Virus record (IMG/VR): IMGVR_UViG_3300010396_000057
Span: 1-45,475 of that record
Length of the DNA: 45,475 nucleotides
Strand: one strand, 5' to 3'
From: a virus
In this document: positions 4,383-10,660 of the stretch, one piece after another
Layout: each line of letters begins with the position of its first letter
Numbering within the stretch: position 1 is the first letter of the stretch
The notes under the pieces: generated by a model
What the model saw: the letters and a program-made list of their open reading frames with translations, nothing else
What the model was told of the DNA's origin: nothing
Databases searched by the model: none
Translations under genes and position numbers: made by a program

Positions 4383-4645
4383 TTCAGGTTCTCCACGGCG
4401 GCAAGGGCTTCTCGCGCCCGGTCATGCCAGAAGTGCGTGCAAAGGTCGCCATCACATCCGCTATCAGCAAGCGCGCGTTTCAATGCCTCGTGCTCAGCAG
4501 CGAACGCGTCGCGGGCTTTGCGAAATTCATCAAGCGCAATGCCGATTTCTTCCCTTGGTTTTCCGCGTGCATTCTTGTGCGCCATCTCAATGCCTTCTGC
4601 GTGCGCATCCAGCACCGCCAGCGCATCGGGGATTTTGTCAGTCAT
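4379..4645 (-). CDS. Small helical protein
   Basis: 88 aa from the ATG at 4645, chosen because AAGGAGG lies 5 bases upstream; the longer reading from 4672 has no such site. It is almost entirely helical and charged, with a cysteine/histidine cluster near residues 65-75 (CDGDLCTHFWH) that might bind metal. Its stop is coupled to the zinc-ribbon gene downstream. Unrecognised. Confidence 0.62.
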   Translation of the reverse strand: MTDKIPDALAVLDAHAEGIEMAHKNARGKPREEIGIALDEFRKARDAFAAEHEALKRALADSGCDGDLCTHFWHDRAREALAAVENLK

Positions 4646-4940
4646 GGGATCCTCCTTGCATGGCTCCGTCAATGGCTTGGTTTAGCGTGACGACGCCGAC
4701 GTGTGACGTTTTGTCGATGAGGTCGAACCAGCCGATGTACCCGTCTAACGTTTCGCCGACACACACACGTGTGATCGCGTGCGGCTTCTCGTTTTTGTTC
4801 GGGAATGGCTGGACGTGATCACGCAGCCACCGATACCTTGCTGCGTCCTTTCGCATCGCCTCAACCTTCTGCTCATCCGTCCACGCCCTCTCGCGGATCG
4901 GCGTCTCGGGTTGCGGGCAATCTTTGATGGGTTCGCTCAT
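4638..4940 (-). CDS. Accessory phage protein with DAxRYRWLRD motif
   Basis: 100 aa starting at 4940 after GGAAGAA. An N-terminal proline-rich stretch is followed by DAARYRWLRD (about residues 34-43), the motif also found in the 2417-3100 product, and a C-terminal beta-rich part ending in a Gly-Ser-His-Asp tail. Paralogous motifs in one operon suggest gene duplication among accessory genes. No enzymatic residues are apparent. Confidence 0.62.
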   Translation of the reverse strand: MSEPIKDCPQPETPIRERAWTDEQKVEAMRKDAARYRWLRDHVQPFPNKNEKPHAITRVCVGETLDGYIGWFDLIDKTSHVGVVTLNQAIDGAMQGGSHD

Positions 4941-4981
4941 TTCAATTCTTCCGATGGGGCGCAAGGTAGTTAGTATTGGCC

Positions 4982-5000
4982 GTCTAATCAGGTGTTAGGC
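4982..5000 (+). repeat. attC-like remnant (R''/R' boxes without the stem)
   Basis: GTCTAAT is followed 5 bases later by GTTAGGC, resembling the RYYYAAC and GTTRRRY boxes of an integron attC site with the central stem deleted. GTTAGGC overlaps the TAA stop of the lar-like gene (4995-4997). A stop codon overlapping a cassette core site is common in integron cassettes. Confidence 0.5.
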
Positions 5001-5198
5001 GGCGTCTTCGATAAACGCCGGCATGCGTTTCCGACTCAGCTTGTTCCACCGATAAGTCAGGGTTTCTTCGTCGCACCGAGCCTGCATCCGGTGCTCGCAC
5101 CAATGGCACTCGATCCAACTCGCCTCAGCATCCGCATTGCTGTCCAGCTCAAGGTCATCGGGGCATCCGCATTTTGGGCATGGCTTCAATTCACACAT
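4995..5198 (-). CDS. Lar-like restriction alleviation protein
   Basis: 67 aa. It begins with LKPCPKCG, the hallmark of the Lar family (PF14354), continues with a second CxxC in a CHWC context (about residues 33-36), and carries a later Trp-Asn in the conserved C-terminal part. Family members are small zinc-ribbon proteins; the founding member, from the Rac prophage, modulates type I restriction so that incoming DNA survives. A GAGGAAACAG ribosome-binding region precedes the start. The gene is bounded by attC-like boxes, with GTTAGGC just before the leader on its own strand and GCCTAAC at its stop. Family call is good; actual anti-restriction activity is inferred. Confidence 0.75.
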   Translation of the reverse strand: MCELKPCPKCGCPDDLELDSNADAEASWIECHWCEHRMQARCDEETLTYRWNKLSRKRMPAFIEDAA

Positions 5199-5221
5199 TT
5201 CTGTTTCCTCGTCGTGGTGTC

Positions 5222-5283
5222 GCCTAACACTGCATTCGAGCCGGACGGCCCATTCGGGCCGCCGCTCAACTCAAGGGTTAGAC
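5222..5283 (+). repeat. Complete integron attC-like site
   Basis: 62 bp from GCCTAAC (5222-5228) to GTTAGAC (5277-5283), matching RYYYAAC and GTTRRRY. The inside folds: GAGC pairs with GCTC, GG with CC and CGGCCC with GGGCCG around an ATTC loop, leaving an unpaired C and an unpaired A on the left arm. On the bottom strand these would be extrahelical G and T, as in attC sites that IntI recognises. The layout resembles the aadA-type attC. No integron integrase gene lies in the window. Confidence 0.72.
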
Positions 5284-5474
5284 GGCATGCTCTGTGAGCC
5301 TGCAATCCAGTGGTCTCGCTTTTCCTTATCGCAGATGACATCGCAGTCGGGTTCCTTTCTGCTGCGGCTACCGGCAAACCAAAACCATCCGGTTCGGTGT
5401 GCTGCTGTTCCGCAAACTCAGCAGACACGGCAGGTTGAGTCAAAGCGCTCGTACTGGTGCATCTCGGTTCGCAT
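5271..5474 (-). pseudogene. Small zinc-binding-type gene interrupted by an in-frame TGA
   Basis: A 67-codon frame with one TGA at codon 19 (5420-5418). Before the stop it encodes an 18-residue start ending CRVC; after it the same frame continues VCG, then an aromatic segment (GWFWFAGS), DCDVIC and a final stop at 5273-5271. Together the parts make a CxxC...CG zinc-ribbon pattern typical of small phage proteins, so the TGA probably arose from a sense codon such as GGA or CGA. The ATG lies directly behind an attC-like GTTAGGC box and the final stop lies inside the attC site. Confidence 0.5.
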
Positions 5475-5477
5475 TCC

Positions 5478-5503
5478 GCCTAACACGTCATCCAAGCGGA
5501 CGT
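5478..5503 (+). repeat. Truncated attC-like site (left half)
   Basis: GCCTAAC (5478-5484) is followed by a segment ending AAGCGGACG that resembles the R''/L'' half of an attC site. The sequence then runs into the end of the HNH-like gene and the right half is missing. A small hairpin CACGTC/GACGTG (5484-5504) remains. Confidence 0.45.
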
Positions 5504-5506
5504 GAA

Positions 5507-5788
5507 TCAAACCAGTTTCAGCCTCCCGGCCTCGATCAGCCGGCTGTGGGTGTTGACGATCGCGCGGTCCATCAGGGCGCGCTTCTGATCGCGGTTGTAT
5601 TCCTTGCCGTCCGTGAGTTGGCGATGGCACTGGGCGCAGAGATATGTAGTCATCCAGGCTTTCGTCTTGAGACCCATTCCCTTGCCGAAATCTCGATGTG
5701 CTACCTGCTGGCCCTGCGCACCACATAGCGCGCAGGCTTCGATGGAAGCCGTCGCCTCGAACCACTTGCGGTCGGCGGCGGTAGTCAT
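5507..5788 (-). CDS. YbcO/DUF1364-like putative nuclease
   Basis: 93 aa. A CALCG pair, an alanine-histidine step (VAHRDFGKGMG), and CAQCHRQLTDG follow the pattern of DUF1364 proteins, in which C-x2-C, AH, GxG and CxxCH build an HNH/treble-clef metal centre. E. coli YbcO (DLP12 prophage) belongs to this family and is thought to be a structure-specific nuclease of phage recombination. Its start overlaps the NinB-like gene, also typical of lambdoid nin regions. Downstream of it begin the attC-like sequences. Confidence 0.72.
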   Translation of the reverse strand: MTTAADRKWFEATASIEACALCGAQGQQVAHRDFGKGMGLKTKAWMTTYLCAQCHRQLTDGKEYNRDQKRALMDRAIVNTHSRLIEAGRLKLV

Positions 5789-6228
5789 GCGAACCTTCCG
5801 TGCATCGGGTCAGGATCGGGCACGTCAATGCCGAACTCCGCCGCCTTGCGCTGGATGAAGTCGTACATGCGCGCCATGGTCACGGTGTCGATGACATCGC
5901 GCTCGCCGCGCTCATTCGTCGTCGTGGTGCGCACCGGCTTGCGATGCCCTAGCGGGCCAGTCGCCCAGCCAAAGAAATCGCCGCAGAAGTCGTGGTGCAA
6001 CCGCTTGCGATCAACTTCGCCCTCAAGTCCCGTCGCCTCCATGATCGTTTTGTAGGCCAGCCCGAACGTCGCTGCGTTTTGATCGACTGAACGTTTCTTG
6101 TGGAACGGTGCAATCGTGACCACCCAAGACTTGTCCGGCGGCAGTCTGTCGATGAAGTCGTGCGCGCGCTGGCGAACCCCGTCGCGTTCCGGGCCATTGG
6201 CATTCAGCTGGTAGGTCTGCGGCTTCAT
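5785..6228 (-). CDS. ninB: NinB-like recombination protein
   Basis: 147 aa. The segment WVVTIAPFHKKRSVDQNA (residues 34-51) matches the NinB signature, in which a Lys-Arg-Ser-x-x-Gln-Asn box follows a beta strand. NinB of lambda (Orf) binds single-stranded DNA and helps load the recombinase, replacing RecFOR. The C-terminal helix (MARMYDFIQRKAAEFGI) agrees with the family. It lies between a YbcO-like nuclease and a PD-(D/E)XK nuclease, overlapping both by 4 bases. Length is close to the usual 140-150 aa. Confidence 0.82.
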   Translation of the reverse strand: MKPQTYQLNANGPERDGVRQRAHDFIDRLPPDKSWVVTIAPFHKKRSVDQNAATFGLAYKTIMEATGLEGEVDRKRLHHDFCGDFFGWATGPLGHRKPVRTTTTNERGERDVIDTVTMARMYDFIQRKAAEFGIDVPDPDPMHGRFA

Positions 6229-6824
6229 GCGGCTGCATCCAGCACATAGTTCTCACGCTCCGGCATGTGGATGCGCGCGAAAGCTTCCAGATCAGCGACC
6301 AGTCGCTCGCAGTCGCGCTCCAACTCCGGATAACGACACTGTTCCAGCGTGTGGAACTTGTGCACCAGGTACGTCATCGGTTCGACTTCCCGCATCTCGA
6401 ACACATTCCAGCGGAACAGATGCGCACGGAAGATCGACAGGTACAGGCGCCACTGATAGCCACTCAGGTAGCGGTCTGGATCGAAACGGCCAGTAGTCTT
6501 GTGGTCCTCGACGCGCAGGCCGTCCAGAACGTCCAGCTTGCCGGTGACGGTGACGCTGCCGTATTGACGTGACGCGCGCACTTCGCGGATCGCCGGCAAC
6601 GCGAGTTCGGCATCGACCTCAATGATGAACTTGAAACCTTGCGCCTCAGCGGTCGCCAGTTCGCCCGTGCCGGCATGTTCCAGCACATCGTGGAACGCCG
6701 TGCCGGCGCGCATGGCCTGCGACGGATTGTCGTTTCGCAGCCAGTCCAGAAATGCCGGCAGCTCGGCCTCGTCATCCTCGCGGAACTGCCGGAACGATTC
6801 GACTTCGGAGACACGGAACAGCAT
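6225..6824 (-). CDS. PD-(D/E)XK nuclease (RecB/Cas4-like phage exonuclease)
   Basis: 199 aa. The RecB-family order is visible: H45 in AGTAFHDVLE, then D98 (GKLDVL), then D107-x-K109 in VEDHKT, then Q124 and Y128 on the following helix. It would degrade linear duplex DNA to give single-stranded ends for the neighbouring Sak4-like annealing protein, as exonuclease-annealase pairs do in many phages. Cas4-type Fe-S cysteines are not seen. It abuts the Sak4 gene with a one-base overlap. Polarity and exact subfamily cannot be read from sequence. Confidence 0.8.
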   Translation of the reverse strand: MLFRVSEVESFRQFREDDEAELPAFLDWLRNDNPSQAMRAGTAFHDVLEHAGTGELATAEAQGFKFIIEVDAELALPAIREVRASRQYGSVTVTGKLDVLDGLRVEDHKTTGRFDPDRYLSGYQWRLYLSIFRAHLFRWNVFEMREVEPMTYLVHKFHTLEQCRYPELERDCERLVADLEAFARIHMPERENYVLDAAA

Positions 6825-7726
6825 TACGCGGCCTGCTGCTGTTCGATGTACGCGCCAGCTTTCTTGTCGAAGCCATACCCACGATCCGTGGCAGCCTTGT
6901 TGAACAGCGCCTGCGCCGCTTTCGGAGCCTCCTTGATCGCATCAAGCGTGTCGTTGAAGTCCGACAGCGCAGCGAGGTCGCCGATGGTCAGGCGCCACCT
7001 CTCCATGACTGCCTGAGCCTCGCGCTGCTCTTCCGTCAGCGCGTTGAGGCGATCCTTGATCTGCTGCACCACGCCGGCCAGGAACTCAGCGAACTCGGGC
7101 GAATCCTTGTGCGGGATCGGCAGCGGATCGAGCTGGCCCGGGTTCTTTCCGAACGCGGCATCGGTGGGCGAGAAGTTCAGCACGCGCTGACCATCGCGAA
7201 TTGCAATGCGACCCATCGCATCCGCCGCCTTGTAGATCTCACCCTTGCTGCCGCCCTGCACGTCCAGACGTTCGATGATTTCATCGCCGTTGCGCTGCTC
7301 GTCCATATGCGCGATCAGGATCACGTCCTTACCCAAGCTATTCAGCAGCTTGAGCCATGCGACGAACTCCGCCTTGAGCGTGCCATAGCCCTGCAAGGTC
7401 AACGCCCCGCCTCGGCCAGCCTTCGGGTTGCGCCGAATGATGTCGGCAGTCAGTGTGTCCAGCGCCCGGCCAGCGGTATCGATGATGACAGTGCGGTACG
7501 GCGCCAGATCGTCAGCGCTGATACCAGCCACGTCACCCCAGTGCGTGACGCGCACCACGTCCTTTCGATTCGCGGCTCGATGCGCGCCCTGGTCGAAGTC
7601 CAGCAACAGCGGCGCCTCGGCGGTGAACGCCAGCGAAGTCTTTCCGATGCCCGGCTGCGCGTAGATGCACAGATTCAGGCGCTCGACCGCGATCGGTTCA
7701 GCGGCTTTTGTGATTTTCAGGCTCAT
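6824..7726 (-). CDS. Sak4-like RecA-fold ATPase, single-strand annealing protein
   Basis: 300 aa. The P-loop is AQPGIGKTS (residues 23-31), the Walker B strand TVIIDTAG lies at 79-86, and LIAHMDEQ about 60 residues later matches the sensor strand of the AAA_24 family (PF13479). Phage members are called Sak4, a Rad51/RecA-related group of annealing proteins. The C-terminal 80 residues are helical and variable. Its neighbours (nuclease, NinB, YbcO) make this the phage's recombination module. The start has GAAGGAGA 5 bases upstream, inside the coupled 32-codon gene. Confidence 0.85.
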   Translation of the reverse strand: MSLKITKAAEPIAVERLNLCIYAQPGIGKTSLAFTAEAPLLLDFDQGAHRAANRKDVVRVTHWGDVAGISADDLAPYRTVIIDTAGRALDTLTADIIRRNPKAGRGGALTLQGYGTLKAEFVAWLKLLNSLGKDVILIAHMDEQRNGDEIIERLDVQGGSKGEIYKAADAMGRIAIRDGQRVLNFSPTDAAFGKNPGQLDPLPIPHKDSPEFAEFLAGVVQQIKDRLNALTEEQREAQAVMERWRLTIGDLAALSDFNDTLDAIKEAPKAAQALFNKAATDRGYGFDKKAGAYIEQQQAA

Positions 7727-7821
7727 CCCATGTCTCCTTCGTTTTCGGTTTCGTCGGGTTCGTGCTGTTCGCTGGCGTAAATTTCGCCCTCGGTGATCGC
7801 GCAGATGCTGGTTTGCGTCAT
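7723..7821 (-). CDS. Tiny acidic protein, coupled to the Sak4-like gene
   Basis: 32 aa starting at 7821 after AGAGGA. It is acidic, with a Glu/Asp/Asn-rich end, and its ATGA overlaps the Sak4 start. It may exist mainly to couple translation of the downstream gene. Below the size of most gene callers; supported by ribosome-binding site and overlap only. Confidence 0.5.
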   Translation of the reverse strand: MTQTSICAITEGEIYASEQHEPDETENEGDMG

Positions 7822-8031
7822 CACAAATCCTCTGCCGGAACCGCCGGCACGGTGTTGGAATGGGTTCCCGGCGCCCTGAATCTCGGCAGCGCCGGGCTTA
7901 TGCTTCCGTCTACCTTTGCCGTGTCGGTAGACCGTTCTCAGGCGGGATCAGGGAGCACAAGCAGCCGGCTAAAGCTCATGCGGATTGCACCTGTGCATGC
8001 ATCCGCCGGCATGGCTCTCCCTTCGCAATCC
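7822..8031 (-). other. Gap in the early operon with a hairpin and a possible 24-codon ORF
   Basis: 210 bases without a convincing gene. An 8-bp GC stem (7867-7874 with 7889-7896, loop 14) has no T-run, so it is not an intrinsic terminator; it could be an RNA processing or pausing element. A 24-codon ORF (7938-8012, minus) has a good GGGAGA site but no family or coupling support. Confidence 0.35.
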
Positions 8032-9837: not shown

Positions 9838-10121
9838 GACAGCCACCCGCGAACCACCGGCAACACCTTCGTCGCCAGCTCCCACGCGACGACCGTCATC
9901 GTCAGCGACCAGCCGACCGCCAGCGTGTATACGAGCCAGCGTGGTGCTGATGCGGGCTTGTCCGACGCGCCACGAATCCAGCTCGGGTGCTGCTGGACGG
10001 CAATGCCGGCAAGCTCAGCCCGCACGATCTGCGGAACGTTGCGGCGGGCGAAGGCGATGGCTTCGGCCTGGTGCTCGCGGTGCTGCATCAGATCGCGGGT
10101 GAGTAGGGCTTGGCGGTTCAT
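9834..10121 (-). CDS. Small single-span membrane protein
   Basis: 95 aa. The first 60 residues are polar and helical, then one hydrophobic segment (about residues 64-84, WLVYTLAVGWSLTMTVVAW) and a short tail. It is probably anchored in the inner membrane with its N-terminal domain in the cytoplasm. A membrane protein expressed early could serve in superinfection exclusion, but nothing in the sequence proves it. Confidence 0.55.
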   Translation of the reverse strand: MNRQALLTRDLMQHREHQAEAIAFARRNVPQIVRAELAGIAVQQHPSWIRGASDKPASAPRWLVYTLAVGWSLTMTVVAWELATKVLPVVRGWLS

Positions 10122-10660
10122 GCCTCGACCTCCGCGCGCTTGCGCATGTCTGCCATCGCATCGGCATTGGAGTCATAGAACCGCGCAGGATTGATCGGAG
10201 CGCCGCTCTCGCGATAGATCAGTTGCGCAGCCAGTGCCGTGTTGTGAAAGCGCTCCAGCGCATAGCCGGCTTTGCCCGCCAAGTGCACAACCCAACCGGC
10301 TCGGCAATGCGTGGTGTTGCAGGCGTGCCAATCCCGCATATCAAGAGCATTTGGCGCGCTGCAGGCCGCAAGCACAGTCGCGTCGATATTTTCTATTGTC
10401 GGCACTGCGGGAGCTACAGGCGCGTCACCGGTTTTGTCGAAGCAGCCGGAGCAGCCGGAGCAGCCGGAGCAGCCGGAGCAGTCGGAGCAGCCGGAGCAGC
10501 CGGAGCAGCCGGAGCAGCCGGAGCAGCCGGAGCAGCGGGAGCAGTTCGTACAATTCCGGCAGTCCTTGAGACTGGCCAGTGCAGCTTGCGCAGCTTCGGT
10601 CGATCCGAAATATTCGACGCTGCAACGGTTGCCGTTTGAGTCAGTCAGCCAAGTGCTCAT
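10118..10660 (-). CDS. Protein with a cysteine at every third residue
   Basis: 180 aa. Residues 34-73 carry 14 cysteines spaced exactly three apart, mostly as Cys-Ser-Gly triplets encoded by a 9-bp tandem repeat. Flanking domains are ordinary: a short N-terminal sheet and a C-terminal domain from about residue 90 with WHACNTTHCRAGWVVHLAGKAG, a conserved block seen in other phage and plasmid proteins with or without such repeats. The triplet array might form a left-handed helix or a metal or disulfide-rich rod. Repeat number can change by replication slippage without a frameshift. Function unknown. Confidence 0.65.
   Translation of the reverse strand: MSTWLTDSNGNRCSVEYFGSTEAAQAALASLKDCRNCTNCSRCSGCSGCSGCSGCSGCSDCSGCSGCSGCSGCFDKTGDAPVAPAVPTIENIDATVLAACSAPNALDMRDWHACNTTHCRAGWVVHLAGKAGYALERFHNTALAAQLIYRESGAPINPARFYDSNADAMADMRKRAEVEA
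10441..10539 (-). repeat. 9-bp tandem repeat encoding Cys-Ser-Gly triplets
   Basis: About eleven near-perfect units of AGCAGCCGG (plus strand); two or three units differ by one base. It lies inside the 10118-10660 gene and keeps its frame. It has no spacers and is not CRISPR. Confidence 0.85.

Follow-up and report, generated by a model that had tools for sequence, protein, structure and literature searches.

An attC site antisense to the early operon of a temperate phage, very likely the remnant of a phage-type integron cassette array

Research on integrons has treated them as devices of bacteria, and a sequence that looks like an integron attC site in the early operon of a temperate phage raises the question of whether it is a true recombination site and, if so, to whom its cassettes belong. 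The window analysed here is the whole of the IMG/VR virus contig IMGVR_UViG_3300010396_000057 (45,475 bp). An earlier note on this DNA had described one complete and two partial attC-like sites, with two small genes placed between them as in gene cassettes, and had proposed that a temperate phage without an integron integrase could carry such cassettes from cell to cell.

The attC site and its setting in the early operon

The prophage end of the window encodes a phage tyrosine integrase, not an integron integrase (185-1315, - strand; PHROG 1, E 3.5e-26), which adjoins a tRNA gene at 74-147. The early operon runs leftward on the - strand and encodes an AAA_24 ATPase (6824-7726; PF13479, E 7e-40), a PD-(D/E)XK exonuclease (6225-6824; PF12705, E 2e-5; PHROG 2139), a NinB/Orf-like recombination mediator (5785-6228; PHROG 72, E 4e-7), and an HNH endonuclease-like protein (5507-5788; PHROG 131, E 6e-17), whose gene is the operon neighbor upstream of the cassettes. 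The attC segment sits between this HNH gene and further early-operon genes. An Rfam search returned no match in the segment, nor did BLASTN find any long match to it among phages or plasmids. Elsewhere on the - strand, 10118-10660 encodes a protein with a tandem cysteine repeat, CSGCSGCSGC, of about 15 units.

The complete site (5222-5283, + strand) has the features by which attC sites are defined: an R'' box (RYYYAAC; here GCCTAAC, 5222-5228) and an R' box (GTTRRRY; here GTTAGAC, 5277-5283) flank an imperfect inverted repeat with L boxes, and unpaired bases on one arm set the strand polarity. As an independent test we trained a covariance model, R1, on 24 attC sites taken from class 1 integrons and from the chromosomal integrons of Xanthomonas; it is made only of bacterial integron sites, largely from Xanthomonas, and the window was excluded from its training. 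In a 45-kb search R1 scores the site at 51 bits (E 1e-11) on the + strand and 12.9 bits on the - strand. This difference identifies the + strand of the window as the attC top strand, and therefore the recombinogenic bottom strand as the - strand, which is the coding strand of the phage. Both strands fold more stably as DNA than shuffled sequences (z -4.3 for + and -3.4 for -), and the minimum-energy fold of the - strand leaves a bulged T and G on its 3' arm. When 7.3 Gb of plasmids were searched, the best matches to the site included the attC of the aac(6')-IIa cassette and that of the aadB cassette, in both of which the gene runs in the attC direction; in the phage collection the sole match is MW202573. 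The site thus resembles attC of the Xanthomonadales and of class 1 integrons, and by sequence and fold it is a genuine attC. The earlier note had claimed a complete site here and had named attC models, bottom-strand folding and a search of relatives among the ways to check it; the attC model and the relatives favor attC.

The flanking sites are less well preserved. At 5478-5502 (+) only the R'' and L'' half of an attC is left (GCCTAACACGTCATCCAAGCGGACG); over 25 nt it is the same as the corresponding half of attC in four other phage sequences (L010, L034, L059, L061), which partly substantiates the site proposed on this side. On the other side, at about 4984-5000 (+), is a probable truncated attC that has lost its stem; its R' half (CAGGTGTTAGGC) retains the box GTTAGGC, with CAGGT in front of it, yet scores 9 bits with R1, which is within the noise and not significant alone, so that here (4982-5000 in the earlier note) the box stands and the site is only probable. 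The motif GTTAGRC by itself shows no enrichment, occurring 5 times in the window where 3.7 are expected. What had been read as an array of sites is therefore degenerate, with a single complete member.

A search of the window by tblastn with phage and bacterial IntI queries found no integron integrase, as the earlier note had stated for these cassettes in a temperate-phage early operon. A complete integron comprises an intI gene and an attI site; the window lacks them, and IntI is present in a relative, L099. A CALIN comprises at least two nearby attC sites with no integron integrase nearby; the window agrees in the latter respect but falls short of the usual threshold of two sites, since one is significant and the other two are truncated.

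Gene polarity in the window and across viral contigs

Two small genes lie beside the attC on the - strand. The first (4995-5198) is intact and encodes a Lar-like zinc protein of the restriction alleviation family (PF14354, E 6.8e-6, 26.7 bits against a gathering cut-off of 28.6; PHROG 599, E 6e-5); its TAA stop codon falls inside a GCCTAAC box, the complement of R'. L021, a contig of another phage, encodes a homolog of 66% identity next to an attC that is likewise antisense. The second gene (5271-5474) is broken by an in-frame TGA at 5418-5420, and no homolog of it was found. A pattern scan for viral relatives of window proteins (Lar, NinB-like and 4638-4964) also found none. Of the two genes in the earlier description, then, one is alive. 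Their spacing is cassette-like, as that description held, but the layout is the mirror image of a normal cassette: read on the gene strand, the GTTAGGC before the start is R'' and the GCCTAAC at the stop is R', and the genes lie on the - strand while the attC top strand is the +. In a conventional cassette the gene runs with attC. These genes are antisense to it and would read against the Pc promoter in a bacterial integron, so that, although the attC in this temperate-phage operon is real, the genes are not ordinary bacterial cassettes in transit.

The same polarity prevails in other viral sequences. The sequences compared here, labeled with L-numbers, are mostly metagenomic IMG/VR contigs whose hosts are not known. 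A half-site pattern found 78 sites in 68 IMG/VR contigs, 51 of them with an R' box. Polarity was surveyed with R1 sites and a codon-model gene caller: 149 of 193 attC sites in IMG/VR have antisense genes on both sides and 17 on one side only, 14 have sense genes on both sides, and 13 are mixed or sense on one side. By contig, 48 are antisense, 3 sense and 5 mixed (n=56). The 170 intervals between neighboring attC sites have a median spacing of 462 bp; exactly one antisense gene occupies 114 of them, and any sense gene is found in only 2. Sense arrays of chromosomal type do exist in some viral contigs (L052/L216, L020, L025).

The antisense frames are real genes. Between homologs (74 pairs, some redundant), substitutions at codon positions 1, 2 and 3 of the antisense frame number 757, 628 and 2142, and this third-position excess indicates selection on the encoded proteins. 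Of 106 attC sites of at least 75 nt, 44 enclose a Shine-Dalgarno sequence with a start codon on the coding strand, and 2 do so on the opposite strand. A longest-ORF rule for gene direction, which divided viral IntI loci 26 to 14, was dropped in high-GC contigs; we ascribe this division to shadow ORFs at high GC, since it is the antisense frame that the substitution test favors. MW202573 is antisense according to its own GenBank annotation, and phage TJE1 has sense cassettes, with R1 sites and genes both on the + strand; the method therefore recovers either polarity.

Integrases, cassette exchange and cargo of phage arrays

Seven of 50 attC-bearing records, L099 among them, encode a protein exceeding the TIGR02249 cut-off, and a scan with four such IntI proteins found 57 viral contigs with IntI. 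In these contigs all R1 sites are on the canonical strand, on the upstream side of IntI, and the cassette genes run toward IntI and co-directionally with it, 78 sites being antisense on both sides; the 8 sites that are sense on both sides are all in L216, the sole sense array among viral IntI contigs and apparently chromosomal. IntI is co-directional with cassettes in about 40 viral contigs, and no R1 sites were seen in several viral IntI loci. The attC of the window is antisense to the phage operon, as the proposed class of phage antisense integrons has it; without a co-directional IntI, the window is at best a remnant of such an integron. At bacterial IntI loci, sampled more widely than Xanthomonas, neighboring genes diverge from IntI in the normal layout in 35 of 37, unlike the phage arrays. 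Two bacterial IntI loci, L302 (genome G184) and L283 (genome G214), have mostly co-directional upstream ORF length and are possible prophage integrons.

Because just 6 of 50 records yielded the PHROG 2 terminase, other phage genes served to judge phage nature: those for integrase, tail and baseplate occur on the same contigs as viral IntI. The viral IntIs retain the catalytic residues, and among solved structures the integron integrase 2A3V comes closest. The viral label clusters strongly in a tree of 89 IntIs (6 changes, against 30 when shuffled), and one viral-only clade of 23 members has support of 99/99; phages thus have IntI lineages of their own. In five named host genomes the only matches to TIGR02249 were to recombinases, weak and short of the cut-off. 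L315 (KX853513, Virus Rctr41k) was not counted, since its IntI-like gene (4680-5678, annotated xerD) comes without an R1 site; this phage genome also has its own xerC-like integrase.

Comparison of closely related contigs reveals exact gain, loss and exchange of cassettes at R' boxes or attI. Between L010 and L061, whose flanks are 99-100% identical, a 1041-bp insertion consists of three antisense cassettes, placed exactly between two CTAAC boxes. Five contigs (L192, L193, L194, L195, L200) have IntI and attI nearly or fully identical and differ in their cassettes; in L192 and L195 the sequence past the first cassettes also agrees, at 99.9% over 5.1 kb, and the stretch that differs is exactly the one from the attI core to an R' box. 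An 840-bp methyltransferase cassette is common to L219 and L233, and an identical 580-bp cassette is first at attI in one of L221 and L225 and internal in the other; these blocks are bounded by R' boxes or attI. Across distinct alignment ends, 10 of 29 fall within 12 bp of R' where 3.8% are expected (p 6e-8, the ends not being fully independent), and many lie away from R'. In L195 the first cassette at attI (7490-7854) is gene-poor and has a second strong inverted repeat (CAAGTAAGCGGTGTCGCTTGAATGATTTCAATTAAGCGACACCGCTTACTTG).

Few of the 122 cassette proteins have a Pfam match. Those that do include Lar (3), N4/N6 and C5 methyltransferases, an Acb2/Tad1 hairpin match (one protein, E 6.7e-18), Gp157, Phage_gp49_66 and a DHH protein, to which PHROG adds Mu Gam-like and HNH proteins. 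Acb2/Tad1 is a family of anti-CBASS/Thoeris sponges. PADLOC matches are mainly to methyltransferases.

Relatives of the window phage were found with the AAA_24 ATPase as anchor (69 viral and 11 genome relatives). Only 2 of these about 80 relatives have attC, namely L099, with antisense attC and IntI, and L070, with antisense attC; the array is therefore no constant feature of the lineage. Both share the AAA_24 ATPase and exonuclease with the window as operon partners. The closest relative, L069 (94% in AAA_24), has no attC in the sequence covered, which ends about 1 kb past the region.

Origin of the segment and relation to known integrons

In our view the segment is very likely an integron cassette array of the phage type that has decayed to a remnant, given the operon partners shared with L099 and L070, the polarity, one complete site beside truncated ones, one live and one broken gene, and the lack of IntI. 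That the inverted repeat arose by chance and is unrelated to integrons is barely credible: the GTTAGRC count and the noise-level left site would suit it, but not an E-value of this size from a model that had not seen the window, nor a half-site shared with attC of other phages. It is also most improbable that the hairpin is an RNA element of the early operon (a terminator, processing or translation-control stem) that merely looks like attC. Its position between genes of one operon and its good single-strand fold agree with such a role, as do the ribosome-binding sites enclosed by long sites; against it, the R boxes and polarity fit a model built from bacterial attC alone, relatives gain, lose and exchange cassettes exactly at R', and IntI is often encoded beside the array.

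The segment could instead be an ordinary bacterial cassette fragment or CALIN that illegitimate recombination took from a chromosomal integron of the host and that is inverted by chance. The likely host group does have chromosomal integrons, for AAA_24 relatives occur in Xanthomonas and Stenotrophomonas, and intI is matched, with an E-value of 1e-40 or lower, in 8 of 20 Xanthomonas-group genomes; the likeness of the site to Xanthomonadales and class 1 attC and the sense arrays in viral contigs point the same way. A captured cassette would nonetheless have its gene in sense, not antisense as in the window and most of the contigs surveyed, and inversion of a whole segment cannot turn genes antisense to their attC. 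Lar, moreover, is typical of phages, and the homolog in L021 lies in another phage's antisense array. For the class as a whole the polarity statistics refute host capture, and for the window we regard it as unlikely.

In the proposed phage arrangement, complete arrays, which occur in related and unrelated phages alike, have the IntI gene last in the early operon, an attI-like core at the 5' side of IntI, and single-gene cassettes in which attC has its normal polarity relative to IntI and the gene runs against attC. From the far end, the phage early promoter would transcribe the cassettes and then IntI, each cassette presenting on the coding strand R', the attC stem, R'' and the gene body. The TAA of R' could often serve as the stop codon of the preceding gene, and the stem of long sites often holds the Shine-Dalgarno sequence and start codon. 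IntI would recombine folded attC bottom strands, by which cassettes could be swapped or added, and the cargo includes early genes of phages and genes of counter-restriction (Lar, DNA methyltransferases, Acb2/Tad1-like, Gam-like), represented in the window by the Lar-like gene. We infer that IntI catalyzes this exchange, in the lytic or induction phase, with a counter-defense benefit. Unless another source provides IntI in trans, the array of the window probably has no activity.

The reversed-cassette arrays of related phages, often with their own IntI, suggest a swappable gene library run by phages. We lean toward the broader view that phages have long run an integron system of their own, in which phage-specific IntI lineages end the early operon, a cassette pool of reversed polarity is functionally separate from the bacterial one, and a counter-defense library is exchanged between phages. 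If the class holds, a group of phages has integrons adapted to the phage operon, and phage and bacterial cassette pools share their recombination chemistry but not their direction of expression. Part of the mosaicism of phage early genes would then be explained by site-specific recombination, and many small early genes of unknown function would gain a context and become a place to seek new counter-defense genes. The transfer route proposed in the earlier note would be limited, as phage cassettes read the wrong way in a normal integron.

attC sites, CALINs and integrons in phages have already been published by Qi et al. 2023 (PMC9892861), with Tetrasphaera phage TJE1, Myoviridae MW202573 and Vibrio anguillarum and Shewanella prophages as examples; there the phage-borne sites appear as scattered pieces, and IntI1 recombined five of six tested virulent-phage attC sites with attI1. 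Those phages resemble the present arrays in having attC in the phage genome and methyltransferase cassettes. The complete integrons listed in that paper are described as Vibrio-type, class 1 and Shewanella-type, not as an antisense phage lineage, and in the text searched we found no remark on the antisense layout of MW202573. Our search of the open-access literature found no report of reversed cassette polarity or phage IntI lineages.

The sedentary chromosomal integrons of Xanthomonas (PMC12444791) share the attC sequence type and the IntI-attI-attC geometry but are chromosomal, with an IntI clade other than that of phages. The reverse integron of Treponema denticola (PMC7691350, PMC4909258) is similar to the phage arrays in that IntI and cassette genes are co-directional. 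In Treponema, however, it is the integrase gene that is flipped, while the ORF runs with attC and has its stop codon in R''; in the phage arrays attC keeps the canonical polarity to IntI, and what is flipped is the cassette ORF. The window, with ORFs antisense to attC, accordingly falls outside the Treponema type as defined in PMC7691350. Integrons described as anti-phage defense libraries in 2025 papers, as far as these are reported in PMC12444791, likewise place the integron platform in the conflict between phage and host; the bacterial ones carry defense, and the phage arrays carry early and counter-restriction-like genes.
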